Source: Nostoc sp. FACHB-152
GTDB lineage: Bacteria > Cyanobacteriota > Cyanobacteriia > Cyanobacteriales > Nostocaceae
NCBI RefSeq assembly: GCF_014697475.1
Contig: NZ_JACJRV010000006.1
Span: forward strand, 124,001 to 188,000
Length of the DNA stretch: 64,000 bases
Direction: 5' to 3'
Within the stretch, counting starts at the first letter, position 1, and the number at the start of each line of letters is the position of its first letter. Position numbers and translations under genes: made by a program. Positions 23,411-50,569 of this stretch are shown one piece after another. Below the pieces are notes generated by a model. That model made no database searches. It saw only the letters and a program-made list of their open reading frames with translations, and had not been told where the DNA came from.

Positions 23411-23788
23411 CTAATCATTCCAACTCAGCATTTGGGCTATTTGTTCGCAAATTAGTAGAGGGTTGAATGGTTTAGTAATGATTCCGGCTACATCTAATTG
23501 AGCAAAACGCTTGTAATCATTGGGTAATACTTTGGCAGTGAGCAAAATAATCGGAATCTCTTGCGTCTTGGGATTAGCTTTGATTTGTTCATAAAATTGA
23601 AAGCCATCCATGTCAGGCATTGATACATCTAGAAGAATGACATCCAAAATATAGTTTTGAGCTTGCGAAAGTCCTTCATGACCAGATTGGGCAGATATTG
23701 CTTCCCAACCGCCTAAATCCTCTAAGCAAGTGCAGGCAAGTTCTCGTAACGATTCTTCGTCATCGATGACAAGGATGCGTTTGCTCAT
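23411..23788 (-). CDS. CheY-like single-domain response regulator
   Basis: A 125-residue receiver domain alone: acidic pair in VIDDEES, phospho-acceptor Asp in VILLDVSMPDMDG, Thr in LLTAK and Lys in ITKPFNP. There is no output domain, so it must act by protein contact or as a phosphate shuttle. Its ATG overlaps the stop of the upstream histidine kinase by 4 bp, so it is translated with the kinase and is its likely partner. Confidence 0.95.
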   Translation of the reverse strand: MSKRILVIDDEESLRELACTCLEDLGGWEAISAQSGHEGLSQAQNYILDVILLDVSMPDMDGFQFYEQIKANPKTQEIPIILLTAKVLPNDYKRFAQLDVAGIITKPFNPLLICEQIAQMLSWND

Positions 23789-26700
23789 AGTTCTCCTGGT
23801 GGTATTGGCAAAGTGAAATAAAATGTACTGCCTTCACCTAAGGTACTTTCTGCCCAAATACTACCATTATGCTTTTGAATAATACTTTGACAAATTGCCA
23901 AGCCAAGGCCTGTGCCTCCCTTAGCACGAGCATCAGAGATATCAACCTGCCCAAAACGTTCAAATATTGTTTCTAGTTTATCGGCGGGAATACCTCTACC
24001 TTGGTCTTTGACTGCAAAAAGTACCCAGTCTGATTGTGGTTGAGCAGACAAGGTAATCACCGAGTCATGCTCAGAAAATTTGATGGCGTTGCTCAACAAA
24101 TTGGTTAAGGTTTGAATAATTAAGTCGGGGTCAGCCCAAACGCAAGCAGTCGTAGGAGTAATAGAAATTTTAATTGCGGCGGCGATCGCAATTGATTGTA
24201 CTCCCTCTACGGCTCTTTGCATTAAATCTGCGGCATTGCATACTTCTTGGACAAGATTTACTCGCCCGGAGGACAATCGCTCTAAATCTAAAATATCATT
24301 TACCAAACGCACGAGGCGATCGCTATTAGTTAAAGCTTGCTCAACCATGCGTTTAGCTTTTTGGGGTTTGTTGTCGTAAATACCACTATTGAGCAGCCCT
24401 AAAAATCCTTGAATGGCGGTGAGTGGGGTACGAAGTTCATGGCTGACAATCGAAATGAATTCATTTTTTATTTGCTCAATAGCTTGCTGTTCGGTAACAT
24501 CTTGAATTTGCAGCACATAATATAGTGGCTGGTTTTGGAAATCTCTCACTAATGACAGGCTAGTTAACCCCCAAGCAATGCGTCCGTCATTACACAAATA
24601 ACGCAACTGGACTTGAACGGGACGATTCTCATTATTCAAAACTTGCGCGATGCATTGTCCCAACTGATGAATATCTTCTGGGTGCAGCAGTTCAAATACT
24701 GTGCTGTTGAAAAACTCTAACTCAGAGTAGCCCAGCATTTCACGTAACATAGGATTGATTTGCAACCATTGCTGATCTAATCCCAACAACGCCATACCGA
24801 TAGGAGCATCATAAAATGCATGGCGAAATCGCTCTTCACTCTCACGCAAAGCTAATTCTGTTTGTTTAAGATTAGTAATATCTAGCAGCACCCCATACCA
24901 GGCAATTTCACCATTGGGTCGGCGTTCTGGGCGAGAGTTAGCACGCACCCAGTTAATTTTGCCAGAGGGTGTAATGATCCGCCATTCGTGGGCAAAGGGT
25001 TCTAGGGTTTTGAGACTTTTAGTAGTTAGTTGGTTGTAGAGCAGCAAGTCATCAGGATGCACTTGGTTATAAGTAAGCATAACATCCTCTAAAACTGCTT
25101 CTGGTTCGAGTTCTTGAATTTCCCGAATTCCTGGACTGACATATTCGTATCTCATCTCATTGGTATCGGGCAAATAAACTAAAATGTAAATTTGTGCTGG
25201 TGAAACTGCGGCAATTTTTTGAAACCGAGCTTCGCTGTGTCTGAGAGCTTCTTCAATATTTTTGCGATCGCTAATGTCTGACATTACACCATGCCAAAGC
25301 AGTGTGCCATCTTTGCAGCGTTCTGGTCGAGAATGTGCCTGAACCCACTTGATTTTGCCACTAGGAGTAATGATTCGCCACTCGTGTTTAAAGGGTTCCA
25401 TGTTTTCCAGAGCGCGGATAACTGCTTGTTGATGCCCTGCGCGATCTTCGGGATGGAAACAGTCAAATGCAACCATTGGATCTTTGAGTGCCTCAGCCAC
25501 GGGAATTTCCTGAATTTCTTCAAAAGCTTGGCTAAGATATTCAAACCGGACAGGTTTACCTGGATATTCTTCAATTGTGTAGATGATTGCTGGTGAAGCC
25601 GCACCTAACTGCTGAAATCGAGCTTCGCTGTGCCGTAAAGCTGCTTCAATTTCTTTGCGCTCAGTAATATCTAGATTTGTTCCGAGTAACTGTATTACTT
25701 GTCCTTGTGTGTCAGTTACAGCTTCTCCTCTAGCTTCAACATATCGAGTTGCGCCATTGGGTTGAATGAGTCGGAACTCTGTTTTATAGGGGTTTTGAGT
25801 TGTGAGCGTTTGCTCCAGGTTGTGCCGTAGGCCTTCTCTGTCGTCGGGATGAATTAGCTCAAAAAATTGAGCTATAGAGGGTTCTGGTACAGATAGACTC
25901 CAACCAAAGATTCGGAAACTTTCTTCAGACCACGTAATTTTCTGGGTTTTGATATCCAGTTCCCAACTGCCTACATGGGCAACTTGCTGGGCGCGACGAA
26001 GAGCAGCTTCACTTTGTAGTATAGCTGCTTCGACTCGTTTACGATCAGTTATATCTGTTACCCGTACTAGATGGATGACTTGGTTAGCGATCGCCACTTC
26101 TTTAGCCGCTAGGTTGCCCCAAAACAAATTTCCCTTGCGTGTGAGGTATTGAGTTTCCGCGCTCCATACACCTTTTTCCTCTATTTGGGCGGTAATTTGG
26201 GACAGTTCTTCAGGAGTAAATTGATGTACCTGAAGCTGGTGTCCTGGAATACCAATTAGTTCGGCTTTACTGCCTGCTTCAAATAATTCTACTGCGCGAT
26301 GATTACAATCTGAAATTAACAAGGTTTGGGAATCGACCAAAAACAAAGCATCAGCAGATTCGTTATAAATACTTTCACGCAAGTCTTTTTGGCGACGCAG
26401 TTCTAATTCTGCTTCTTTGCGATTGCTGATATCTTTAGTAACTGCAATTATATGTGCTTGTCCCCCAAGCTCAATGATATCTGCGGAAACCAGGACTGTA
26501 ATTACCTTACCTGATTTGTGAACAATAGAAAATTCTTGGTTACGAACTGTTTTACCTGAGAGTAAATCTTGCAGATAGTATTGCTTTGCCCCTACACTAG
26601 CCCAATATATCAGATTTGCCCCTGCGTCACCGATAACTTCTTCCCTAGAATAACCATATAAATCAATAAAGGCATCATTCACATCTATGCAATGGCCATT

Positions 26701-28056
26701 CAGGGTCAGAATCGCCATTGCTTCTGGACAAGTACGGAAGACTTTAGTGAAGCGTTCTTCTGACTGTTCTAAAGCAGTTTTGACAGATTCATAAGACTGT
26801 TTTAGCTGTTGGGACATCCAATGAAAGGAGTTCTGCAAAACTTGGAACTCTGCGATGATGCTATTTTGGCCAATGGCTTGATTCCATTCGCCGTTTGCCA
26901 ATGCCAAGCTAGTTTGACCTAATTGTTGCATAGGTCGGACAATAAATTGGGTGAGCAATAATCCTAAAGCGATCGCACCAACTAAAGCCGCAACACTAAA
27001 AATTAAGGTCAAACGCGTATTTGTATCAATTTCTGCGGTAAAATCTGATGCTGGCAAGACTGTCACAATCAACCAGTCGAGTCCAAATTGATCACCATAA
27101 GGGATGATTAATAAAAATTGCTTTTTGCCTTCTATATCAAAGTAAAGTTGTTGTGCCGTCTTAATTTGAGTTAAGTTCCCAAAACGAGAAGCTAAATGCT
27201 TACCTGCTAAACTAATCAGAGGTTCCTTACTTTCTATCACCTTGAGACGTTTGTTTTGTGTTCCATTAGCACCTGTCAGAAATGGTTGTTCAGAGGTCGA
27301 ATTAGCTACCATCAATCCTGAACGTTCCATAATAAATACTTGGCCGTGAGTACCTACTTGCAATTTTTTGAGAAACTCACTAATAGTCAAAAGGTCTATA
27401 TCGCTAGTAAAAACGCCTTGAAGTTGTTGTTTTTGGTTATAAATAGGATAGCTGGCGGCAATGCCTAAACCTCTAGAAGCTGGTATGTACAAAAAAATTG
27501 ATGTCCAGGTTGGTTTGCCTATTAAAAGTGCTTTTTGATAAAAAGGTCTTTGCGTTCCATCATAATTTTGCTGATTAACTAATAATTTTTTCCGCTTGCC
27601 TTGATTATCTACGCTATATACATAAAGCTCTCCTTTCCTAAAATTCTTGGTAAAGGAAATGCTGAGTCCGCGTTCATCGTTTCCCGCTCCCACAAGTCCA
27701 CCTTGGGGATTAATAAAGTGAATTCTCTTGGAATCGAATTCTTGAATTTGACTTAAAAAATAGCTTTCTAAATTTTGAGGGTTAGTGATGTCTATATTTT
27801 TTAGTTCGCTAGCTTGAGCATTAAGGCGATTAATTAAATGTGGAGTCTTTAAATAATTACTCAAATATAAATGAATGCGATCGCTGATTTCGCTCATCAG
27901 CTTATATGCCAAGCTATTGACTGAACGCTGAGAATTTTGCAGTGAGATATAACTTACTAAACCTGTGGTTCCCCCAATTAACAGCACAAAGGGTACGGTG
28001 AGGATGAGCCGTAAAGGAATTTTCAGCGTTTGGTTGTTAGCTAGCCTTTGCCTCAC
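23785..28056 (-). CDS. Membrane sensor histidine kinase with Cache, HAMP and six PAS domains
   Basis: A 1423-residue kinase. Membrane helix ~16-36; extracytoplasmic double-Cache-like sensor ~40-340; second membrane helix ~348-368 and HAMP (~370-420); then six PAS/PAC units (start motifs SEERFTKVF ~432, LRESIYNES ~555, SEAALRRAQ ~680, SEARFQQLG ~808, SEARFQKIA ~937, SEERFRHAF ~1067); then HisKA with SHELRTPLTAIQGF (~1205) and HATPase_c with the N, G1 and G2 boxes (NLLSNAIKFSE, VKDQGRGIP, GGTGLGLAI). PAS 4 and 5 share long identical stretches and look like a tandem duplication. It follows a multidomain regulator by 17 bp and overlaps a CheY-like gene, forming a phosphorelay operon. The signal is unknown. 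Confidence 0.95.
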   Translation of the reverse strand: MRQRLANNQTLKIPLRLILTVPFVLLIGGTTGLVSYISLQNSQRSVNSLAYKLMSEISDRIHLYLSNYLKTPHLINRLNAQASELKNIDITNPQNLESYFLSQIQEFDSKRIHFINPQGGLVGAGNDERGLSISFTKNFRKGELYVYSVDNQGKRKKLLVNQQNYDGTQRPFYQKALLIGKPTWTSIFLYIPASRGLGIAASYPIYNQKQQLQGVFTSDIDLLTISEFLKKLQVGTHGQVFIMERSGLMVANSTSEQPFLTGANGTQNKRLKVIESKEPLISLAGKHLASRFGNLTQIKTAQQLYFDIEGKKQFLLIIPYGDQFGLDWLIVTVLPASDFTAEIDTNTRLTLIFSVAALVGAIALGLLLTQFIVRPMQQLGQTSLALANGEWNQAIGQNSIIAEFQVLQNSFHWMSQQLKQSYESVKTALEQSEERFTKVFRTCPEAMAILTLNGHCIDVNDAFIDLYGYSREEVIGDAGANLIYWASVGAKQYYLQDLLSGKTVRNQEFSIVHKSGKVITVLVSADIIELGGQAHIIAVTKDISNRKEAELELRRQKDLRESIYNESADALFLVDSQTLLISDCNHRAVELFEAGSKAELIGIPGHQLQVHQFTPEELSQITAQIEEKGVWSAETQYLTRKGNLFWGNLAAKEVAIANQVIHLVRVTDITDRKRVEAAILQSEAALRRAQQVAHVGSWELDIKTQKITWSEESFRIFGWSLSVPEPSIAQFFELIHPDDREGLRHNLEQTLTTQNPYKTEFRLIQPNGATRYVEARGEAVTDTQGQVIQLLGTNLDITERKEIEAALRHSEARFQQLGAASPAIIYTIEEYPGKPVRFEYLSQAFEEIQEIPVAEALKDPMVAFDCFHPEDRAGHQQAVIRALENMEPFKHEWRIITPSGKIKWVQAHSRPERCKDGTLLWHGVMSDISDRKNIEEALRHSEARFQKIAAVSPAQIYILVYLPDTNEMRYEYVSPGIREIQELEPEAVLEDVMLTYNQVHPDDLLLYNQLTTKSLKTLEPFAHEWRIITPSGKINWVRANSRPERRPNGEIAWYGVLLDITNLKQTELALRESEERFRHAFYDAPIGMALLGLDQQWLQINPMLREMLGYSELEFFNSTVFELLHPEDIHQLGQCIAQVLNNENRPVQVQLRYLCNDGRIAWGLTSLSLVRDFQNQPLYYVLQIQDVTEQQAIEQIKNEFISIVSHELRTPLTAIQGFLGLLNSGIYDNKPQKAKRMVEQALTNSDRLVRLVNDILDLERLSSGRVNLVQEVCNAADLMQRAVEGVQSIAIAAAIKISITPTTACVWADPDLIIQTLTNLLSNAIKFSEHDSVITLSAQPQSDWVLFAVKDQGRGIPADKLETIFERFGQVDISDARAKGGTGLGLAICQSIIQKHNGSIWAESTLGEGSTFYFTLPIPPGEL

Positions 28057-28073
28057 CTTTGCATCCTCTACTT

Positions 28074-29891
28074 CTAGGTTTTTAATATTTCCTGGACACG
28101 AGAACGATTAATCCGGCTGATCACACGAGTGATTAACTCTTTGCCCTCTACAGGCTTGCCGATAAAATCGTCGGCTCCTGCTGCAAACACCTGTTGAATT
28201 GTTTTATTATCTGTATGGGCAGTAACTACTAATATCGGCAAATTTCCCCAATAAGCATCTTGTCTGACTACACGGCACAAGTCAATACCGCTATATATTG
28301 GCATTTCTAAATCGATCATTAATAAGTCAGGAGTTATTTTAATTAGTGACTCCCAAAATTTTTGAGGGTTTTGCAAGGTTTTCACCGTCAGTCCCCAAGG
28401 TTGCAATACATTGGATAATATATCCAGCATTACAGGATCATCATCTACGATCATCACCTTAGCTGGACTAGCTTGAGATTGAGGTATGACTTTGGTAATT
28501 GCTTGAAATACTTTAGTAATAGTAGGCTGACTCAAAAATCCTTGTATTCCTAAACGAGCAACAGCTACTCTTTGGGCAAGATTGTCTTGGTTTGCTACTA
28601 CAATAATTGATGTATTCGGAAATTTTTGTTTGAGTTTTGCGAGTAATTTTAAACTTTTTTGACTCGATTTTTGCCCATTGAGATTGAACAAAATTACTTT
28701 GGGAGATGGAGAAATATTTTGGGGAATATTTTCCAAGTTGGCAGCTACTTCGATTCTGACTCCCCAACTTGCAGCTTGCATTTTCAGTTCGTTAGCAAAA
28801 GATTCATCCGCCATCGCCAGGACTAAAGGAAACCCTTTTGGTTCTATTTGTTCAACAGTTAAGGGCTTCGGAGGTCGGCTGATTATTCCTTTAAGTTGAC
28901 TAATCAGTTGCGACAGTTTAACAGCATCTTCTAACGTTAAATCTTGTTCTTTGACTAGCAAATGTTCAATTGCTTGAGCTAACTTTGAACCGATTTCGTA
29001 GCCAAATGAACCTAGCGTTCCTGCTAATTTGTGTGCTTCGTTGCTGGCTTGCTGCCGGATTTGGGGCAACAATTCTCCTGCGTATAAGGCAAGTTCTGCT
29101 TGCTCTAGCAAAGTTAAGCGTTGGGCAAAGGTATCTTTGTAGCGTTCTATAGTTTTGTTGATAGCTGCGATCGCTTTTTGACTTTTTGCTTGTTCTTGTT
29201 CACTATCGGGTGTTGGTGGGGGTTTTAGCCGATAGCCCAAGCCATAAACGGTTTCTAGTAATTCTGCCGACATTCCTATGGTCTTTAGCTTGTGGCGTAA
29301 GTCTTTAATTAAATTAGTGACCGCCCCTTCACTTGGTGTAGCATCAACTGACCATAGGTGATCAATAATATCACTCCGGCTAAACACACGTTGTGGATTA
29401 CGCAAAAATAGCCTGAGCAAACTATACTCTTTCGGACTTAAAGATATAGGTTTGCCTTCATAGGTAACTTCTGCCGACACAATGTTGAAGCATAAATTTC
29501 CCCAACTCAACACACTTGGTCTTAACTGGGTCGTACCGCGTCGCAGTAATGCTCGTATCCGCGCTAACAACTCTGAGATATCGTAGGGTTTAATCACATA
29601 ATCATCTGCACCAGCATCTAATCCTTTGACTACATCGGCACTCTGATCTTTGGCTGTCAGTAGAAGAATCGGCTTTTGAATGCCCTGTGCGCGAAGTTGC
29701 CGACAAAGGTTAATTCCATCAAGTTTAGGAATCAGTAGATCCAACAATATCAGGTCAAAGTTGGATACAGTTGCTAATGCTAAACCGTTCTGCCCATCTG
29801 CTGCCACTTCAACTGTATAATGTTCGGCTGTGAGAACCTCACTTAGTATGGTCGCAGTTGGTAAATCGTCTTCTACCAGCAGAATCTTCAC
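28074..29891 (-). CDS. Multidomain response regulator: REC-wHTH-HPt-degenerate REC-REC
   Basis: A 605-residue OmpR/PhoB-type regulator with extra relay modules. REC1 (1-120) has VEDD, the acceptor Asp in LILLDLLIPKLDG and KPYD. A winged-helix DNA-binding domain (~130-223) ends in VYGLGYRL. An HPt domain (~245-335) has the phospho-His in EAHKLAGTLGSFG. A middle receiver-like domain (~350-460) has AMADES at the acidic site but Asn/Leu in VILFNLNGQ where the acceptor Asp should be. REC3 (~470-600) is intact (VDDDP, LLMIDLEMPIYSG, VTAH, GKPVEG). It probably exchanges phosphate with the kinase encoded just downstream and binds unknown promoters. It begins the operon. Confidence 0.93.
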   Translation of the reverse strand: MKILLVEDDLPTATILSEVLTAEHYTVEVAADGQNGLALATVSNFDLILLDLLIPKLDGINLCRQLRAQGIQKPILLLTAKDQSADVVKGLDAGADDYVIKPYDISELLARIRALLRRGTTQLRPSVLSWGNLCFNIVSAEVTYEGKPISLSPKEYSLLRLFLRNPQRVFSRSDIIDHLWSVDATPSEGAVTNLIKDLRHKLKTIGMSAELLETVYGLGYRLKPPPTPDSEQEQAKSQKAIAAINKTIERYKDTFAQRLTLLEQAELALYAGELLPQIRQQASNEAHKLAGTLGSFGYEIGSKLAQAIEHLLVKEQDLTLEDAVKLSQLISQLKGIISRPPKPLTVEQIEPKGFPLVLAMADESFANELKMQAASWGVRIEVAANLENIPQNISPSPKVILFNLNGQKSSQKSLKLLAKLKQKFPNTSIIVVANQDNLAQRVAVARLGIQGFLSQPTITKVFQAITKVIPQSQASPAKVMIVDDDPVMLDILSNVLQPWGLTVKTLQNPQKFWESLIKITPDLLMIDLEMPIYSGIDLCRVVRQDAYWGNLPILVVTAHTDNKTIQQVFAAGADDFIGKPVEGKELITRVISRINRSRVQEILKT

Positions 29892-36066: not shown

Positions 36067-36759
36067 ATGTTTTTCCACAAAAAAGAACCAATTCATGCAG
36101 TAAACATTAATGAGCCTAATCCTCGGTTTGCTCAGTTACTTCTTGAGCAGTTTGGCGGCGCGACTGGAGAATTAACAGCAGCTCTGCAATATTGGGTACA
36201 ATCTTTCCATGTTGAAAATGCTGGAATTCGGGATATGTTGCAAGATATTGCCATTGAAGAATTCAGCCATTTAGAAATGGTTGGTAAACTCATTGAAGGC
36301 CACACTAAGAATACAGATCAAACAGAAGTTTATAAAAGTACTCTGTTTGCTGTTCGCGGTATAGGGCCTCACTTTTTAGATAGCCAAGGTAGTGCGTGGA
36401 CAGCCAATTACATCAATGAAGGTGGGGATGTAGTGCGCGATTTAAGAGCCAACATTGCAGCTGAAGCTGGCGCACGTCAAACTTACGAAGAGTTAATCAA
36501 GTTAGCATCAGATCAAGGTACTAAAAATACTCTAGTGCATCTATTAACACGGGAAATTTCTCATACCCAAATGTTCATGAAAGCTCTAGATTCATTGGGT
36601 AAATTAACAGATCCATTTTTTGGTAATATTCAACCGGATGAAACGGTGGATATTTACTATAACCTGTCAAGCAATGGTACTCAGGATGAGCGCGGCCCTT
36701 GGAATTCTGAGCCTACATTTAAATATGTTGCCAACCCTCTAGAACGCAAGACTAACTAA
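36067..36759 (+). CDS. Manganese (non-haem) catalase
   Basis: This 230-residue protein belongs to the ferritin-like di-manganese catalases, which destroy H2O2 without haem. The ligand motifs are Glu in GGATGELTAAL (~35), EEFSHLE (64-70), Glu in AAEAGARQTYEEL (~140) and REISHTQMF (~178-184). The family has been studied in Anabaena sp. PCC 7120, where it protects against oxidative and desiccation stress; a role here is inferred by homology. AGAGGAATTTC ahead of the ATG is the ribosome-binding site. A terminator hairpin follows at 36806. Confidence 0.95.
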   Translation: MFFHKKEPIHAVNINEPNPRFAQLLLEQFGGATGELTAALQYWVQSFHVENAGIRDMLQDIAIEEFSHLEMVGKLIEGHTKNTDQTEVYKSTLFAVRGIGPHFLDSQGSAWTANYINEGGDVVRDLRANIAAEAGARQTYEELIKLASDQGTKNTLVHLLTREISHTQMFMKALDSLGKLTDPFFGNIQPDETVDIYYNLSSNGTQDERGPWNSEPTFKYVANPLERKTN

Positions 36760-40192: not shown

Positions 40193-43100
40193 TTAAGCAC
40201 TTTCCAATAATTGCAGAATCAGTTGCAAAGGAATATCAGCCCAATCTGGACGATTGTTAATTTCGTAACTCAGTGCATCGATCGCTTTTTCTAATAAGAA
40301 ACTAGAAATCAACACTTGCAGTTCGGCTGTATTTGTGGGTAAGAAATCGTCCTTGCTGGCAATTTCCAGGTAAGAATTTAAGAAAGCTGTACTCACCCAG
40401 GTATACCAAAATTGTCCCCATTCTTCTAACAATGCGTGATTTTCCGGCACAATCATGCCACTTTCTATTTCTTGACGCAGTGCTTTATTTACAGCGTAGT
40501 GGAATGATAGCAGCATTGTGGCTACATCTCGCAGGGGCGATCGCTTTCTGCGGCGTTCGCTTAAACTACGTGCGCCTCTGCCTTCAAAGTGGGTAATAAT
40601 AAAATCTTTACCTGTGTACAGCACTTGTCCCAGATGGAAGTCCCCATGATAACGAGTCCGCGAGGCAGTGATTTTTTGCTTCACTATTAATTGGAAGCGG
40701 TCTAAAATCTCCTGTTGGCGGTTGAGAACTTCTGTTGCTAATTGTTGGGTATTTGGTGGTAAAGATGATAATCTTTCGGGCAGTACTCTAAAGACTTGCC
40801 CTGTTAGGTTACGCGCATTTTGATAGATGGAACGCTGATAAAACGTCGAAAAAGCTTCTGGGGCAAAGTCGGTGTTAGCTATATTTGTAACTAAAGCAAT
40901 GTGGAGTTCGGCTGTAGATTTACCCAACAGTTCTACACTTGAGAGATAAGAACCGATAGTGTGAAGTGCCAATTCGGGAATATCTTTTCGCTGCAAATGG
41001 AGTATTGAACCGGAAGGAAGCGGGACTTCAGTAACAGAGGCGTGTTGTGTTGTTACTAAGTCGAAGTAATGCTGCAAGCTATCAAGAGTATAATCCCAAC
41101 CACTACGGATATCGAAGATGAATTCTTGCAATATGCCGATAGTCATGAGTAGGCTACGATTATAACCTTCTGAATTCGATTGATATTCTATCGCCCCAGC
41201 TAAAGGAATAAAGTTTTGCAGGGATTTTTTCTCACTGAGGAACCGCCGAATTTCTAAATCGGGGTGTGTACCAGCTTCGACTTTGCGGAAGAGTTTCAAA
41301 TAAAGGCGATCGCCATAAATTATACTAGTGCTGGGTTTGCCGTCTATCTGTTGAATAGTAGGATTCCGGTAGATTCCATCTTGATCTAGAGGGAATAAAT
41401 CAGTTGTCGTGGTAACTAATTTTCCTGTGATGCCTTGGTAAGCGTTATGGTTGGCGATCGCATCCAATAATCCGGTAAGGAAAGTTTTGTCTGTTAACGC
41501 ATCAAATAAAACGCCATTCGCATCCGGTGTTTGTTGGATCTCCAGATTTGCAACTATCGCTTGGGGTGTTTCTGCAATCAGGTTTGACACTTGTTCACCT
41601 GTAGCATAGCCTAAAAATAAGAGATACGTGTCTGCACTTCCTTGGAGATAGTCTACCTGCAACCAAACAAGTTGAGCAGACTTATCATCGTAGGGTAAAG
41701 AAATTGTCTCAATAATTTGTACTGATTGCACAGTCTGAGATTTGCCAGCGAACCAAGTGCAGGTATATAGATAATCTCGCAGTGTAGATTCTAGAGTATT
41801 TTTGACTTCCCGTTGAGAAGTTACCTCTTGCCAGGAACTATTGACAACCAGGGTGGGTAATTGAACTTGCAGTTTAGGCTGTTGAGTCAAGCTAGGCTGG
41901 AGGGTAAACCAATAAAACCCGTAAGGACTCAAACTGAGGAAATAACTGGACTCACCTATAGCTGGGAACTGAGTTTGACCAAAAATTTCGACTGGGACTG
42001 ACCCGTTAAAGCTGGATAAATCTAATGCTACTGTCTGGACGAAGTGAGATAAATTCGCTACTACCAATACTGTTTCATTATCCGTTGACCGAGTGAACGC
42101 CAAAACTTTGCGATTATTGGAATGTAATATTTCCAGCTTACCTTGTCCCAAAGCGGGAAAGCGTTTGCGAGTCGCCAGCAAACGTTTCATCCAATACCAA
42201 AGAGAATTATGATTTGCTCTTTGGGCTTCGACGTTGAGGGCTTCGTAGTGGTATTCTGAGTCAACAATCACGGGTAGATATAGACGCTGGGGGTTGGCGC
42301 GGCTAAAACCAGCGTTACGATCTGCACTCCATTGCATGGGAGTACGTACACCATTGCGATCGCCTACATAAACATTATCACCCATACCAATTTCATCACC
42401 GTAATAAATTACGGGTGTCCCTGGCATAGATAACAGCAAACTGTTGAGTAACTCAATTTGGCGGCGGTCATTACCTAAAAGTGGTGCTAGTCGGCGACGG
42501 ATACCTAAATTCAACCGCATCATGGGGTCTTGGGCATAAACCCGATACATAAAATCGCGGTCTTCATCCGTCACCATTTCTAGGGTGAGTTCATCATGGT
42601 TGCGGAGGAACAACGCCCACTGACAATTATCAGGAATCGCTGGTGTTTGCTGGAGAATATCAACAATAGGGAAGTTGTCTTCCATCCGCAATGCCATAAA
42701 TAAACGCGGCATTAGGGGAAAATGGAAGTTCATGTGACATTCATCGCCATCGCCATAATATTGCGCTGCATCTTCCGGCCATTGATTTGCTTCCGCCAAC
42801 AGCATCCGGTTAGTAAATTTGGCATCAACTTGCGCCCTTAATTCTTTTAAGAAAGCATGGGTTTCTGGTAAGTTTTCGCAGTTCGTTCCTTCCCGTTCAT
42901 ATAGATAAGGAACTGCATCCATTCGTAACCCATCGACACCCATTTCTAACCAAAAATCTAATACCTCAAATACAGCTTCCCGCACTAAAGGATTGTCGTA
43001 GTTTAAATCTGGTTGATGGGAGTAAAAACGATGCCAATAGTAAGATTTAGCAACCGCATCCCAAGCCCAATTTGATGTTTCAAAATCTTGAAAGATAATC

Positions 43101-43540
43101 CGGGCTTCTTGATATTTTTCTGGAGTATCATTCCACACATAAAAATCTCTTTCTGGGCTACCTTTAGGCGCACGTCTCGCCCTTTGAAACCAAGGATGCT
43201 GGTCAGAAGTATGGTTAATAATTAACTCAATAATTACTCGAATTCCCCGTTGATGGGCAGCATCTAAAAACTGTTTAAAATCTTCTAATGTGCCGTAAAT
43301 TGGGTTAACGCTGGTGTAATCGGAAATATCATAACCATCATCTTTAAGTGGTGATGGGAAGAAGGGGAGTAACCAAATAGCAGTTATGCCTAAGTCTTGG
43401 AGATAGTCTAATTTCTCTGTTAAGCCGCGAAAGTCGCCAATGCCATCATTATTACTGTCGGCAAATGCCCTAACAGGTAGTTCATAAATAATTGTATTTT
43501 TAAACCATAAGGGGTCGTTGGAAAGAAGGTAATTAGTCAT
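40193..43540 (-). CDS. treS: Trehalose synthase / maltokinase fusion (TreS-Mak)
   Basis: This 1115-residue fusion would interconvert trehalose and maltose (TreS, ~1-550) and phosphorylate maltose (maltokinase, ~590-1115). The TreS half is a complete GH13 enzyme: NHTSDQHPWFQ, catalytic Asp in GLRMDAVPYLYE, Glu in LLAEANQWPED and RNHDELTLEM. The maltokinase half keeps the HGDFHLGQVL loop (~964). However, the magnesium-binding motif, DFEGEP in typical maltokinases, reads THFEGRG here (~982-988), so the Asp is His and Glu-Pro is Arg-Gly. The flanking ARSLSERRRKRSPLRDVA segment is normal. The kinase may therefore be inactive or altered. The gene ends the glgX-treZ-treY-treS operon, 106 bp after treY. 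Confidence 0.93.
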   Translation of the reverse strand: MTNYLLSNDPLWFKNTIIYELPVRAFADSNNDGIGDFRGLTEKLDYLQDLGITAIWLLPFFPSPLKDDGYDISDYTSVNPIYGTLEDFKQFLDAAHQRGIRVIIELIINHTSDQHPWFQRARRAPKGSPERDFYVWNDTPEKYQEARIIFQDFETSNWAWDAVAKSYYWHRFYSHQPDLNYDNPLVREAVFEVLDFWLEMGVDGLRMDAVPYLYEREGTNCENLPETHAFLKELRAQVDAKFTNRMLLAEANQWPEDAAQYYGDGDECHMNFHFPLMPRLFMALRMEDNFPIVDILQQTPAIPDNCQWALFLRNHDELTLEMVTDEDRDFMYRVYAQDPMMRLNLGIRRRLAPLLGNDRRQIELLNSLLLSMPGTPVIYYGDEIGMGDNVYVGDRNGVRTPMQWSADRNAGFSRANPQRLYLPVIVDSEYHYEALNVEAQRANHNSLWYWMKRLLATRKRFPALGQGKLEILHSNNRKVLAFTRSTDNETVLVVANLSHFVQTVALDLSSFNGSVPVEIFGQTQFPAIGESSYFLSLSPYGFYWFTLQPSLTQQPKLQVQLPTLVVNSSWQEVTSQREVKNTLESTLRDYLYTCTWFAGKSQTVQSVQIIETISLPYDDKSAQLVWLQVDYLQGSADTYLLFLGYATGEQVSNLIAETPQAIVANLEIQQTPDANGVLFDALTDKTFLTGLLDAIANHNAYQGITGKLVTTTTDLFPLDQDGIYRNPTIQQIDGKPSTSIIYGDRLYLKLFRKVEAGTHPDLEIRRFLSEKKSLQNFIPLAGAIEYQSNSEGYNRSLLMTIGILQEFIFDIRSGWDYTLDSLQHYFDLVTTQHASVTEVPLPSGSILHLQRKDIPELALHTIGSYLSSVELLGKSTAELHIALVTNIANTDFAPEAFSTFYQRSIYQNARNLTGQVFRVLPERLSSLPPNTQQLATEVLNRQQEILDRFQLIVKQKITASRTRYHGDFHLGQVLYTGKDFIITHFEGRGARSLSERRRKRSPLRDVATMLLSFHYAVNKALRQEIESGMIVPENHALLEEWGQFWYTWVSTAFLNSYLEIASKDDFLPTNTAELQVLISSFLLEKAIDALSYEINNRPDWADIPLQLILQLLESA

Positions 43541-43646: not shown

Positions 43647-46451
43647 TCATTTTCCAGGATTATTAGTTAACAGTGCTACAGGAAAATATTGCAACACATC
43701 ACCAACTAATAATTGCTTATCTGCTTTCACTGTTTGTCCAGTAATTGCATCTGTCCAAGCTGAAGAAACTTCGGAAGGTAATTTAATAGCAGTGTCATTC
43801 CAAACTTGAGTTCCTAATGGATATTGTCCAGGTTGAATTAAGCCTGTCAAAAATCGAGGAACAATCGTAATAGTTGACTGATTGTTATGAACCATAGCAA
43901 AGGCAACAATATGGTCTTTAAATTGCCCTTCTACTTCTAAAGGTAAATACTGACCGTCTTGAAAAACATCGACATATGTTGTTCTTACTTTTAATGCTTG
44001 AACAATTAGGAATAACTTGACTCTGCCATCTTCTTTACTTGCCAATAATTCTTCAATTAACTGCAATATGTCAGTTTGGGATTTTTCCTTAATCTTTTTG
44101 AGATAATCGCGTCGCAGTTCAAAATCAACCGGACGACGGTTATCGGGGTCAACCATACTAAAATCCCAAAGTTCAGTTCCCTGATAAAAGTCTGGGAACC
44201 CAGGGGAGGTAATTTTAATTAGGGTTTGAGACAGAGAGTTGAAGATACCGTAGTAAGCTATTTGTTTTTGGAAAGGTATAAACTCTTGTAAAAATTGATT
44301 GGAATCTGATGGTTCTAAAACTCGGCTGGCGAAGTCAATAAAAGCATTTTCATAGATGCTATTTTGTCGTAACCATGCTGTATGTACTTTCGCTTCTCTA
44401 ATGGCTTTTAAGAGGTAATCTTTGAGGCGAGTATAAAAATCCTCATACTCATGTTCAACAAATGGCAAAGCCCCAATCAGCATCTGATAAAATAAATATT
44501 CGTCGTTAGCATCTGGCATTACGTTTTTTTTATCAGTGCGGCTTTTTAAAGTACGATTAATTTCACTAAATTTCTTAACTTGGCTTTCCCACTCTTCAGG
44601 AATTTCTGATAAAACATTCAACCTCGCTCTAATATCTTCACCCCTTTTAGTATCATGGGTAGAAGTAGCATTCATGGCATATTGCCAGCGCGATTGACGT
44701 GCTTGGTTAAATTCATCAAACTCAGCTTTAGTAATACCAAACTGGTCAGGTTTTCCACCAACTTCGTTTAAAGAAACAAAGCGATTATAAACGTATAATG
44801 CCGTATCTTCTGCGCCTTTTGCCATCAGGGGCCCTGTATATTGTTGCAGGCGCATAACAAAGTATAGCCACTGTTCTTTTTCTGCTTCAGTTAAAGAATC
44901 ATCGTACTCTAATAAGAGTAACTTTTCGATAAAGTTTAACTCGTTATTTAAGAAGGGAAGATGTGCTTTAGCTTGTTCAATTACATCCTGAGTATAGGTA
45001 CGGTCATTGTCTGTTATCCCATCTTGATCTATGTAGGTTCTATATATCGGGAAGCGAGTTAATATTTCGGCAAGTGCGCGTTTCAAACCATTGATGGTAA
45101 AGTCATTACCATAGCGATACTTACTAGAAATTTTCCTTAACAGATATGCTAAGTTATCTACATCTCCGGCTAAGTTTCTTTCTAATATGAGATGTTTTTT
45201 ATCTTTTTCTGTTTGCTCGTAAGGTGTTTTCCAACCTGTGATATTGTAATAAGCTTGGGTAAAAGCTTCTTCATTTTCAGTTTTACAAAAAATTCCATTG
45301 ACGTAATTTAAAAAGTCATACCCGGTCGTACCCTGAACTGGCCAATTTCCTGGTAAGTCTTCTCTTGGCTGTAAAATTTTTTCTACACAGATGTATGTAT
45401 CATCTACTTGTTCTTTCAGCCTTTCTAAATACTGAGTAGGATTATATAAACCATCAATGTGGTCAATGCGTAAGCCTGTAAAGTGTCCCGCCTTAACTAA
45501 GCTACAAATTAACTCATGAGTATTCTTAAATACTTTTAATTCTTCAATTTTCACAGAAATTAACTCATTGACTGTGAAAAATCTTCTGTAGTTAATTTCC
45601 TCTGCCCCAACTTTCCAATAAGAAAGTCTGTAGAACTGTTGAGAAAGCAAATTATCTAATGAGTTAAAACTTTCTGGTTTTCCAGGTTCACCATTAAATA
45701 ATTTGAGGTTGTCATCAATAAATGTTTTAACTTCTGTATTATCTGTATACAGTTCCCATAACAGACCTTTAACAAAATCTATTTGGTCTTGTCTTTGGTT
45801 TGGGTGCGTATCTTGGGGGAAATTCTTCACCATGTAAAGCACACCCAGCAACCTGACAAATATAGGGTGCTTTCTGCCTAAAGTTCTTGCTAATTCGCCT
45901 AAGTTCCGACTTAAGAAAATTGCATACGACTCTAGATTGACTGGTAATTTTAAACTATAATAATTGACACTCAATCCGCTTTGGTCATATTGCAGTTGAA
46001 TTTCTCCCTTTTCTAGACAATCACCATAAAATTGTCCAAGAAGTGGTGCTAATATCGGTTCTTGGCTACTAGCAAAAGGTGAATTCCAAGAGATATCAAA
46101 ATAGTTAGTATAGCTGGAATTACCCCCATTTTCTAAAATATCCATGAGATATTTATTTTGGCTATCATAAGCCATGTGGTTAGGTACAATATCCTGTAAC
46201 CAACCAATGTTATATTTTTTTAAATCTTCAACTAAAGCAACAAAATCTTCTTGCGTTCCCAACTCGACATTTAATTGATTTGGGTCAACAATATCATACC
46301 CGTGGCTACTACCTGCTCTAGCTTGAAAAATTGGCGAGGCGTAAAGTTCAGATATGCCTAACTCGGCTAGATAATTAGTAATTTCTTTTGCTGAGTTAAA
46401 AGGAAATTGTGAATTAAATTGGATTCGATAAGTAGCTACAGGTATACGCAT
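43647..46451 (-). CDS. treY: Malto-oligosyltrehalose synthase TreY
   Basis: TreY rearranges the reducing-end alpha-1,4 bond of maltodextrin into alpha,alpha-1,1, giving maltooligosyl trehalose. The 934-residue length is normal. GH13 landmarks are visible: [16 protein letters not shown], Asp in [12 protein letters not shown], Glu in [30 protein letters not shown], and the C-terminal [29 protein letters not shown]-type stretch (here with [14 protein letters not shown]). It lies between treZ (156-bp gap, filled by a palindromic repeat) and treS/mak (106-bp gap holding a CTCTGCG repeat), all on one strand. Confidence 0.96.
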   Translation of the reverse strand: [934 protein letters not shown]

Positions 46452-46607: not shown

Positions 46608-48422
46608 TTAACCTTCGTATAAAGCAAAACTCTGACTACGCATTGTTAATTGCTGATGTGTGTTAATTTCTTCTGGTAAAATTGAGCCGGTTCCTAACCA
46701 CTTTTCTTCGGAAGAATCCAGAATTTTTCTCCAAGAATTATTGCTAAACTCGTTATCCAAAGTAATGCCACTGGTGTTGAAGTTTAGCAGACAAAGTAGT
46801 TTTTTATTTTCTAGTTCTCTTGTCCACCAAACAAGCTTTTTCTCTTCGTTACTTCCAGATTGGATATTGCTGCGATCGCCTGTTGTCCAACCTGGAATTT
46901 GATTACGCAATTGAATCAGGTGGCGATAAAAATCCCATACTATTTTATGTTTACCAGTTTGGCGTTTTTCCCAGTTCAATTTACACTGCAAAAATGTTTC
47001 TTTGCCTTCTGGGTCTGGTGGTTCACCTTCGGCGTGAAAGGCTTTAAATTCTTTCTTTCTGCCCTCTCTAACTGCTTTAATTAAATCGGGATCTGAATGA
47101 CTAACAAAGTAAATAAACGGCGCATCTTCTGCATATTCCTCACCCATAAATAACATTGGGATATAAGGAGAAAGCAAAGTTGCTCCCGCCGCCAATTTCA
47201 CAGCTTCAAATGAGACTAGTTGTGATATTCTCTCACCTAGCATTCTATTACCAACTTGGTCATGATTTTGGCTATTGATCACAAATTGGTAGGAAGGGCG
47301 ATCGCTGGCTGAGTTACCATGAAAACGTTGGCGATGAGGAGAATATTTCCAGTCATAAACAAAGTTGTCTTTATAAGCTTTGGCTAAATGTTCGGCTTTG
47401 CCAAAATCTTCGTAATAACCAACGCGATCGCCTGTTAACAAAGTATATAGTGAATGATGTAAATCATCGCTCCATTGAGCGTCTAAACCGTGACCGCCTA
47501 ATTCCTGTGGGCGAATGAATTTGGGGTCATTTAAATCACTTTCTGCAATTAGATAAAGGCTTCTTCCTTGCGCTTTGGAAAGTTCGGCAACATTTTCTGC
47601 GAGTTCTGCCAAGAAATGTTTTGCACCCAAATCGTAAATAGCATGAACTGCATCTAAACGCAGTGCATCAATATGATATTCCTGCAACCAGTAAAGCGTA
47701 TTTTGAATGAAATAATTGCGAACATCAGGGCTATGGGCATCATCAAAATTAATCGCACTGCCCCAAGGAGTGCGATATGTTTCTGTAAAGTATGGCGCGA
47801 AGCGACTCATGTAATTTCCTTCGGGGCCAAAGTGGTTATAAACCACATCTAAAATCACCGCTATGCCCTGTTGGTGACAAGCATCAACTAATAGCTTTAA
47901 TTTTTGCGGCCCGCCATAGGAACTCTGCACCGCATAGGGATAAACGCCATCATATCCCCAATTGCGATCGCCTGGAAACTGTGCCACTGGCATCAATTCA
48001 ATGGCATTTACTCCTAAATCGCGCAAATCTTTCAACCGAGGGATAATTGCTTCAAATGTGCCTTCTGGTGTAAAAGTTCCAACGTGTAACTCATACATGA
48101 TCATTTGTTCTAAAGGAACACCAGACCAATTACTGTCATTCCAAGTAAAACTATGATCAATTACCTGAGATGGCCCGTGTACATCTTGGGGTTGGAAATT
48201 TGAAGCGGGGTCAGGTCTGCTTTCCTCACCATCTAATTGATAAAAGTAAAGTGTTCCTGGTTCTATATTGTTAGCTGTAACTTGCCAGTAACCCCCATGT
48301 TTCTCCATCGGGATAACTTGAGATTTGGGCGAAACAATTTCTAAAGCAACTGTTTTTTTATCTGGGGCCCAAACTGTAAACTCGCAACAACCATCGCCTA
48401 AATAATGCGCGCCAATCTTCAT
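46608..48422 (-). CDS. treZ: Malto-oligosyltrehalose trehalohydrolase TreZ
   Basis: TreZ releases trehalose from the product of TreY. The 604-residue protein has an N-terminal CBM48/E-set domain (~1-90: GAHYLGDGCCEFTVWAPD, VALEIV), the GH13 barrel with nucleophile Asp in ALRLDAVHAIYD, acid Glu in LIAESDLND and NHDQVGNRMLGER, and a C-terminal beta domain. It follows glgX by 20 bp on the same strand, so they are surely co-transcribed. Spacing to treY is larger and filled by a repeat. Confidence 0.96.
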   Translation of the reverse strand: MKIGAHYLGDGCCEFTVWAPDKKTVALEIVSPKSQVIPMEKHGGYWQVTANNIEPGTLYFYQLDGEESRPDPASNFQPQDVHGPSQVIDHSFTWNDSNWSGVPLEQMIMYELHVGTFTPEGTFEAIIPRLKDLRDLGVNAIELMPVAQFPGDRNWGYDGVYPYAVQSSYGGPQKLKLLVDACHQQGIAVILDVVYNHFGPEGNYMSRFAPYFTETYRTPWGSAINFDDAHSPDVRNYFIQNTLYWLQEYHIDALRLDAVHAIYDLGAKHFLAELAENVAELSKAQGRSLYLIAESDLNDPKFIRPQELGGHGLDAQWSDDLHHSLYTLLTGDRVGYYEDFGKAEHLAKAYKDNFVYDWKYSPHRQRFHGNSASDRPSYQFVINSQNHDQVGNRMLGERISQLVSFEAVKLAAGATLLSPYIPMLFMGEEYAEDAPFIYFVSHSDPDLIKAVREGRKKEFKAFHAEGEPPDPEGKETFLQCKLNWEKRQTGKHKIVWDFYRHLIQLRNQIPGWTTGDRSNIQSGSNEEKKLVWWTRELENKKLLCLLNFNTSGITLDNEFSNNSWRKILDSSEEKWLGTGSILPEEINTHQQLTMRSQSFALYEG

Positions 48423-48442: not shown

Positions 48443-50569
48443 TTATTCAAGACAACGTAATAAAACAAGCGATCGCTCTGTTACTTGCACAGTTTGATAT
48501 CCTGAAATTAACTTCTCGTCTTTAATAAAACGAGGTTTGTCAGTATCAATCACTATTGTCCAAGCCTTATCTTTGAGGCTATGGGGCAAAGCAAACTCAA
48601 CAGGTTCGTAGTGGGCGTTAAAAAATAGCAGGAAACTTTCATCAATAATTCGTTCGCCCTGCGGCCCAGGAGTAATGATTCCTTTGCCATTCAAGAAAAT
48701 TTCCATCACCTTGGCATAACTAACTAGCCATTGCTTGTCAGTCATTTCACTACCATCGGCATTAAACCAAGCAATATCACTAATACCATGTCCATGAATA
48801 GGACGACCTTGAAACCACTTGCGCCGCCGGAACACTGGATGTTGATGACGGAAATAAATCAGTTCGCGTGTAAAGTCTAATAAGTCTTGGTTGGTTTTTA
48901 CTAAATCCCAGTTTCGCCAAGAAATTTCCGAGTCTTGGCAATAAGCATTGTTGTTACCCCACTGAGTACACCCCATTTCATCACCCGCCAGCATCATGGG
49001 TACGCCTTGGGATAGCAGCAGAGTGGTTAAAAAGTTTCGCCGTTGACGTTCCCGTAAGCGCAACACGCCGGGATCATCAGTTTCCCCTTCTGCGCCACAA
49101 TTCCAGGATCGATTATGGCTTTCGCCATCTCGGTTATCTTCGCCATTCGCCTCGTTGTGCTTATCGTTATAGCTGACTAAATCGTTTAGAGTAAAGCCAT
49201 CGTGGGCGGTAACAAAGTTAATACTTGCATTAGGGCTGCGACCGTTTTGTTGATATAAGTCCGGGCTACCAGTAAAACAGTAAGCAAACTGTCCCAGACT
49301 ATTATCTGCACCTCGCCAAAAGTCCCGCACTGTATCTCGATATCGGCCATTCCACTCTGTCCAAAGTACAGGGAAATTTCCTACTTGATAACCACCTTCG
49401 CCCAAGTCCCAAGGTTCAGCAATTAATTTGACATCTGCCAAAACAGGGTCTTGATGAATAATGTCAAAGAAAGCTGCGAGGCTATCTACTTCGTATAACT
49501 CCCGCGCTAATGCCGAAGCCAAATCAAACCGGAAGCCATCTACGTGCATTTCTAATACCCAGTAGCGCAGGCTATCCATAATTAACTTCAAGACTTGGGC
49601 ATGGCGCACATTTAAAGAGTTACCGCAACCCGTAAAGTCCATATAATAACGAGGGTCATCCTTGACTAAGCGGTAATACACACTATTGTCAATTCCCCTT
49701 AGTGATAGCGTTGGCCCTAAATGGTTGCCTTCGCCAGTGTGGTTGTAGACAACATCCAAAATCACCTCAATGCCTGCAAAATGCAAAGCCTTGACCATCT
49801 CTTTGAATTCGGTGACTTGTTGCCCTAAGCAACCACTCGCACTATATCCACAATAGGGAGCAAAATAATTAATCGAATCGTAGCCCCAATAATTGGTGAG
49901 TCCTTTATCTACTAAATGTCCAGGACGGGATAAAAAATGATGCACAGGCATCAATTCAACAGCTGTAATTCCTAGCTGTTGCAAATATTGAATTGCTGCT
50001 GGATGTGCTAAACCAGCATAAGTACCGCGCAATTCTTCAGGAATATCTGGATGCAGTTGAGTGAAGCCTTTGACATGAGTTTCATAAATGATTGTTGTAT
50101 GCCAAGGAGTCCGCAGTAATTTGTCATCGCCCCAATCAAAAGATTGATCGACAACTACAGACTTAGGCATGATATGAGCATTATCTAAATCAGAAAAAGC
50201 TAAGTCTTTTTCCGGCGCATCCCAAGAGTAGCCAAAAACAGACTCATCGTGTTTAAACTCACCATCAATTGCCTTAGCATATGGATCAATCAGTAGTTTG
50301 TTGGGGTTAAAGCGATGACCCATTTCTGGAGACCAAGGGCCATGCACTCGATATCCATACTTTTGTCCTGGCCCAATTCCTGGTAAATAACCATGCCAAA
50401 CAAAATTGTTCTTTTCAGTTAATGGGATGCGAACTTCTTCATTATTTTCATCGAATAAACAAAGTTCTACCCCTGTGGCATTCTCTGAATATAAAGCGAA
50501 ATTTGTCCCTTTACCATCCCAAGTTGCACCTAAGGGATATACACTCCCCGGCCATAATGCTACATACAT
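48443..50569 (-). CDS. glgX: Glycogen debranching enzyme GlgX (isoamylase type)
   Basis: GlgX hydrolyses alpha-1,6 branches of glycogen or limit dextrin, yielding linear maltodextrins for TreY. The 708-residue length is right. An N-terminal CBM48-type domain (PLGATWDGKGTNFALYSENA) precedes the GH13 barrel: DVVYNHTGEGNHLGP, Asp in DGFRFDLASALARE, Glu in KLIAEPWDLGEGGYQVG, and FVTAHDGFTLNDLVSYN. It begins the operon glgX-treZ-treY-treS/mak, preceded by an 866-bp spacer with no other gene. Its functional partner here suggests the name TreX as well, but GlgX is the safer symbol. Confidence 0.95.
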   Translation of the reverse strand: MYVALWPGSVYPLGATWDGKGTNFALYSENATGVELCLFDENNEEVRIPLTEKNNFVWHGYLPGIGPGQKYGYRVHGPWSPEMGHRFNPNKLLIDPYAKAIDGEFKHDESVFGYSWDAPEKDLAFSDLDNAHIMPKSVVVDQSFDWGDDKLLRTPWHTTIIYETHVKGFTQLHPDIPEELRGTYAGLAHPAAIQYLQQLGITAVELMPVHHFLSRPGHLVDKGLTNYWGYDSINYFAPYCGYSASGCLGQQVTEFKEMVKALHFAGIEVILDVVYNHTGEGNHLGPTLSLRGIDNSVYYRLVKDDPRYYMDFTGCGNSLNVRHAQVLKLIMDSLRYWVLEMHVDGFRFDLASALARELYEVDSLAAFFDIIHQDPVLADVKLIAEPWDLGEGGYQVGNFPVLWTEWNGRYRDTVRDFWRGADNSLGQFAYCFTGSPDLYQQNGRSPNASINFVTAHDGFTLNDLVSYNDKHNEANGEDNRDGESHNRSWNCGAEGETDDPGVLRLRERQRRNFLTTLLLSQGVPMMLAGDEMGCTQWGNNNAYCQDSEISWRNWDLVKTNQDLLDFTRELIYFRHQHPVFRRRKWFQGRPIHGHGISDIAWFNADGSEMTDKQWLVSYAKVMEIFLNGKGIITPGPQGERIIDESFLLFFNAHYEPVEFALPHSLKDKAWTIVIDTDKPRFIKDEKLISGYQTVQVTERSLVLLRCLE

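Follow-up and report, generated by a model that had tools for sequence, protein, structure and literature searches.

What keeps a sugar kinase domain fused to a working enzyme once residues required for phosphotransfer are gone? The question is raised by a trehalose synthase–maltokinase (TreS-Mak) fusion encoded in a 64,000-nucleotide stretch of the Nostoc sp. FACHB-152 genome (GCF_014697475.1, contig NZ_JACJRV010000006.1, positions 124,001 to 188,000; hereinafter the window). A first-pass annotation made from the sequence of the window had pointed to the absence of the DFEGEP motif from the Mak half and proposed either a pseudokinase serving as a structural or regulatory partner of TreS or a loss of function leaving maltose unphosphorylated. 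While that annotation viewed a single gene, we find it to be one case of a pattern seen in many lineages and linked to the absence of GlgE. We consider it probable that the Mak half is a former maltokinase, now inactive, that has been kept as a non-catalytic partner of TreS after the loss of glgE.

The fusion gene occupies 40193..43540 (reverse strand, as do all features of the fusion and its trehalose-pathway neighbors given below) and codes for 1115 residues in a single open frame, which rules out a frameshift artefact. The N-terminal half (aa 1-570; 41831..43540) is well conserved and predicted to be a trehalose synthase: the fusion scores 916 bits against TIGR02456 treS_nterm (cut-off 678), and phmmer relates this half to 5x7u with an E-value of 1.8e-260. 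Its D208, E250 and D316, which we take to be the three GH13 catalytic residues, are invariant across 67 sequences. The C-terminal half (aa 590-1115; 40196..41773) contains both the maltokinase N-terminal cap (PF18085; aa 590-684; 41489..41773) and the kinase-like fold, which mark it as a member of the maltokinase family. The TIGR02457 (putative maltokinase) alignment spans aa 561-1111, almost all of the Mak half, bearing out the earlier view that the frame is sound.

The motif at aa 984-989 (40574..40591) does read HFEGRG in place of the Mg-binding DFEGEP, with His984 encoded by CAC (40591-40589), Arg988 by AGA (40579-40577) and Gly989 by GGC (40576-40574). In the maltokinase of Mycobacterium vanbaalenii, whose numbering we use throughout, Asp305 of the HGD motif is the putative catalytic base, Gln310 and Asp322 of the DFE motif bind Mg, Ser136 belongs to the P-loop, and Lys413, Tyr416 and Tyr420 line the maltose site (PMC4306142; the articles cited here are drawn on in excerpt). 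The window protein has thus lost D322 (His), E326 (Arg) and P327 (Gly) at the Mg site. At the P-loop (aa 734-737; 41330..41341) it has GKPS for the EQSN of active maltokinases (E134-N137 of the M. vanbaalenii enzyme), in an ungapped reading anchored on TS..YGD; MAFFT opens a one-residue gap here, and Ser136 (Pro736) is lost in both readings. The maltose-binding Tyr416 is replaced by Asp1088 (40277..40279). By contrast, D305 (Asp967), Q310 (Gln972), K149 (Lys749), K413 (Lys1085) and Y420 (Tyr1092) are kept. Hence, the earlier statement that the flanking motifs are intact holds for the catalytic loop HGDFHLGQ (aa 965-972; 40625..40648) but not for the P-loop or the maltose-site tyrosine. In the M. 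tuberculosis enzyme a D-to-N change at the Mg aspartate abolishes activity, and M. vanbaalenii maltokinase altered at 413, 416 or 420 is almost inactive (PMC4306142). Because D322 has become a histidine, and the P-loop serine and Tyr416 are also gone, the loss of maltokinase (EC 2.7.1.175) catalysis is strongly supported by sequence comparison. The TIGR02457 score likewise falls short of the cut-off of 375.05 (368.7 bits for the whole fusion, 365.5 for the Mak half). However, while four canonical homologues score 435-459 bits, four of six degenerate Mak halves are also above it (382-426), and activity cannot be judged by this cut-off.

As the first-pass annotation had suggested, we searched the genome for glgE: GlgE (PF11896) has no match in it (190 contigs, with a listed completeness of 100%), and neither does trehalase (PF01204). 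The proposal that maltose is left unphosphorylated would hold if the genome has no other maltokinase; a PF18085 profile search of it matched the TreS-Mak gene alone.

The link with GlgE recurs among relatives. Of the first 17 genomes tried, exactly four have GlgE, namely the four with a canonical DFEGEP. For larger samples we scored six residues (D305, D322, Q310, K413, Y416 and Y420), which were picked after the changes in the window and PMC4306142 had been seen. An even draw of 388 genomes from the order yielded Mak in 119 and GlgE in 19 (18 of these with Mak); at least one of the six residues is lost in 0 of the 18 GlgE-positive as compared to 88 of the 96 GlgE-negative genomes with an intact frame, D305 or D322 being lost in 51 of these 96. 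Among named loci (the 80 top-ranked of a longer list, 31 of them with a protein identical to one in the order draw) the counts are 0/14 and 57/66, respectively; 79 of their genomes were searched for GlgE, and L099 is counted as GlgE-positive as GlgE adjoins the gene in the locus itself. Collapsing 203 loci to 158 distinct Mak halves gives losses in 0/28 GlgE-positive and 118/130 GlgE-negative sequences (Fisher p 6e-22, which ignores kinship). This count drops L230-L233 (broken, partial or cut frames), and its input excludes L001 and L017 (partial, frameshifted), L007, L009-L012 and L015 (whose genomes the draw already represents by other loci), loci that lack a Mak domain, and L234-L245, which stem from a later class-level check. 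It replaces an earlier protein-level count of 164 distinct sequences (0/29 and 121/135), in which differing 5′ ends had duplicated the same genes; the tree, column-erosion and irreversible-loss analyses below use representatives under 90% identity or these earlier 135 GlgE-negative sequences.

A class-wide draw of 319 genomes yielded GlgE matches in 13, one of them under the cut-off; 12 of these were searched for Mak, G049 being already known. Mak is present in 10 of the 12, and the nine with a GlgE frame of at least 585 aa all keep HGD..DFEGEP; two of the nine, G628 and G584, repeat the earlier G080 and G092 as judged from their contig coordinates. In the tenth (G578), GlgE is reduced to some 75-80 N-terminal residues (L246:1870-2109), directly upstream of TreS-Mak, and the Mak half displays E326D, K413R and Y420N, as though the change had begun. 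Since GlgE ends no more than about 430 bases ahead of TreS-Mak in 9 of the 14 named GlgE-positive loci, this remnant sits at the place of the ancestral gene. GlgE matches without a Mak match were found in G317 of the order draw, and in G498 and G743 (GlgE below the cut-off) of the class draw. A tree built from 93 representatives at under 90% identity, without the site columns, requires a minimum of 9 changes for D305, 6 for D322, 8 for Q310, 10 for Y416 and 11 for GlgE. A reading with irreversible loss and vertical descent has 16 clades lacking GlgE, of which three consist of one non-cyanobacterial metagenome-assembled genome (MAG) each. Of 10 supported independent pairs with contrasting GlgE status, a mean of 5.6 show the six residues differing in the same direction, none in the opposite direction, and 4.4 no difference (p about 0.03). 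A working enzyme domain appears to have turned repeatedly into a non-catalytic partner, along with the absence of GlgE.

The routes of loss are diverse. The HFEG motif recurs in relatives that include Nostoc sp. FACHB-110, Nodularia, Chrysosporum and Iningainema, making nine distinct sequences with that of the window, which excludes chance or a base-calling error as the source of the D-to-H change. The Iningainema sequence (L043) does not group with the remaining HFEG rows in the tree; hence, D322H may have had multiple origins or undergone reversion. Elsewhere HGD is replaced by HGN, HGA, HGQ, HGK, HGS or HGH and the DFEG motif by NFEG, NFGG, DFGG or DFKG, with further losses of Q310; thus, D305 gives way to N/A/H/Q/S/K and D322 to H/N in different lineages. 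Of the 130 GlgE-negative Mak halves 68 have lost one catalytic aspartate (D305 in 39, D322 in 29) and none both. About five second losses were expected and none observed (P(0) 0.006, on the earlier 135 sequences or their representatives), a pattern that we noticed post hoc; as one active-site aspartate always survives, it hints at a retained binding role.

We propose that the ancestor ran the GlgE pathway, in which TreS would convert trehalose to maltose, Mak would phosphorylate it to maltose-1-phosphate and GlgE would pass it on to glucan. Once glgE was lost, maltose-1-phosphate would have had no outlet, so mutations killing the kinase would be tolerated or even favored, perhaps by selection against this intermediate. 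To our knowledge, it has no other outlet. In Streptomyces venezuelae the defect of a glgE null is caused by maltose-1-phosphate build-up while a pep2 null grows normally, and its accumulation is reported to kill M. tuberculosis (PMC5042117). Inactivation would then have proceeded in many lineages via D322, D305, Q310, the P-loop or maltose-site residues. The Mak domain would stay fused and conserved since TreS in such lineages would rely on it. The simplest reasons would be docking, assembly or stability, by analogy with the mycobacterial TreS:Pep2 complex. There, Pep2 docks at and beyond the C-terminal β-sandwich of TreS, with the ATP site beside the interface (PMC6509496). TreS itself would equilibrate trehalose and maltose, no longer pulled towards glucan. 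A bolder version, which we offer only tentatively, is that GlgE loss repeatedly selects for the death of the maltokinase as its product would be toxic, with the dead domain then retained to regulate TreS by sensing nucleotides or by assembling it, some ten or more times in cyanobacteria. Separately, we observed a GH65-β-phosphoglucomutase fusion in the genome of the window (L247:1222-4140, C180) and at L249:1135-4116, adjoining a sucrose-synthase-like gene. Its nearest solved relative is kojibiose phosphorylase, with maltose phosphorylase also being related. GH65 is present in 7/7 HFEG-clade genomes as compared to 0/3 GlgE-positive genomes tried, a small sample with kinship uncontrolled, and might provide another outlet for maltose or trehalose.

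Could the Mak half instead be a useless kinase drifting to loss without any function? The many routes by which active-site residues are lost would fit such neutral decay, as would the broken or cut frames in 5 of 101 GlgE-negative genomes of the order draw (G330 being at a contig end) and a ratio of nonsynonymous to synonymous substitution rates (dN/dS) that is higher in Mak than in TreS in all seven sets. However, an open frame of over 1000 aa is kept in the other 96 of the 101, and 117 of the 120 genomes with a TreS match in that draw also have Mak; the exceptions (G448, G052 and G157) give E-values no better than that of a stand-alone TreS of 44% identity, the identity itself being read for G052 only. 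The median Mak dN/dS is 0.147 in the HFEG clade (16 pairs) and 0.124 in GlgE-positive lineages (9 pairs); relative to TreS, the two are equal (2.23 and 2.26). Of the columns invariant in GlgE-positive representatives, the 134 of TreS are kept at a mean of 0.983 in GlgE-negative ones, while the 90 of Mak are at 0.848. The erosion is concentrated in catalytic or binding columns (10/13 versus 17/77 of the others; p 2e-4, with residue classes that we assigned ourselves). By contrast, neither group varies at 23 Mak columns, and K149, H245, H303 and D343 are kept in 130/130 GlgE-negative halves. The failure of the two aspartates ever to be lost together (0/130), even if post hoc, also speaks against drift, and we regard pure decay as improbable. 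The predicted structure preserves the Mak fold; the TreS half has low-confidence stretches and so no domain–domain interface was read from the model. Judged from this model and the alignments, the Mak half would qualify as a pseudokinase, with a fold conserved by selection and catalytic residues lost. The partner role that the first-pass annotation had proposed fits this fold, the intact frames and the purifying selection, and is a role that we infer from them.

Some proteins labeled pseudokinases prove active, and Asp967, Gln972, Lys749, Lys1085 and Tyr1092 remain, raising the question of whether the half is still a maltokinase with a rearranged metal site. With the P-loop serine and Tyr416 also gone, the same aspartate being indispensable in the M. 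tuberculosis enzyme (PMC4306142), and a genome search that turned up no GlgE to consume maltose-1-phosphate, we hold this to be very improbable. A more serious contender, if still short of an even chance, is re-purposing, whereby the half would bind a nucleotide or other sugar and regulate TreS, or phosphorylate something else. The surviving aspartate would suit it, but the conserved core residues may be structural, and the parts of the active site that are lost differ by lineage, offering no suggestion of one shared new substrate. Several observations count against retention as an inactive partner of TreS. Both catalytic aspartates are kept in 62 of the 130 GlgE-negative halves, where inactivity rests on other residues and is less certain. 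Twelve of the 130 keep all six scored residues and four all nine that were checked, namely those of Hormoscilla (L067 and L082), a Desulfobacca MAG (L069) and a Planctomycetota MAG (L112); thus, the absence of GlgE does not force the change, even if gaps in MAGs could explain some of these cases. Ser136 is a threonine in a GlgE-positive protein (L114) and hence not strictly required. For the Mak/TreS dN/dS ratio, other clades have values of 2.1-3.8, and selection has likely been relaxed to some degree in a portion of these. There are also stand-alone TreS proteins lacking Mak, which means that the domain is not a general requirement of TreS. Finally, a tree of the TreS half only, with low support, leaves five supported pairs (1.8 same, 0 opposite, as means) and has no power. 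As an observation in its own right, the Hormoscilla loci (L067/L187 and L082/L195) combine a fully canonical Mak with no GlgE detected, perhaps due to recent glgE loss or an assembly gap.

On the same strand, ahead of the fusion, lie treY for malto-oligosyltrehalose synthase (43647..46451; TIGR02401, 930.6 bits), treZ for malto-oligosyltrehalose trehalohydrolase (46608..48422; TIGR02402, 759.4 bits) and a glgX-type gene for a glycogen debranching enzyme (48443..50569; TIGR02100, 1055.1 bits), which together constitute a glycogen-to-trehalose route. A short manganese catalase (36067-36759; 230 aa, PF05067) close to this cluster is a possible neighbor in desiccation or oxidative stress. Elsewhere in the window (23785-29891), a multi-PAS histidine kinase of 1423 aa adjoins a protein of 605 aa that combines receiver, DNA-binding and Hpt domains.

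The fusion shares its domain order, TreS half, maltokinase fold and TIGR02456 and TIGR02457 matches with the TreS-Mak (TreS-Pep2) fusions of Pseudomonas aeruginosa and Estrella lausannensis (PMC11046441). However, those make maltose-1-phosphate, whereas that of the window lacks the Mg-site aspartate, P-loop serine and maltose tyrosine, and glgE was not found in its genome. In the mycobacterial Mak/Pep2 and TreS:Pep2 complex (4u94, 4o7o and 5jy7) an active kinase and TreS are separate polypeptides; here they are fused and the kinase is predicted to be inactive. Like bacterial and eukaryotic pseudokinases (PMC12599244, PMC10211241), the domain retains a kinase-like fold without the phosphotransfer residues, but it is a sugar rather than a protein kinase, and its several separate origins go with a single missing downstream enzyme. 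We found no paper joining the terms pseudokinase and maltokinase, and the excerpted literature on maltokinase or TreS-Mak in cyanobacteria with or without GlgE does not report the pattern; its scope was the freely readable literature, with subscription papers such as the GlgE pathway survey of Chandra et al. 2011 (cited in PMC6686919) lying outside it.

Curated models still label such domains maltokinases, as the degenerate halves passing TIGR02457 illustrate. Should the domain be dead, TreS-Mak alone must not be taken as evidence of glucan synthesis of the GlgE type. The pattern offers a replicated system for the origin of pseudokinases, in which a toxic intermediate as the driver becomes testable. 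According to a review, desiccation tolerance in Leptolyngbya ohadii is linked to a long TreS with a maltokinase domain, and this domain is credited with a role in it (PMC9736550). In cyanobacteria with a dead domain of this kind, the role of the long TreS would have to be structural or regulatory.
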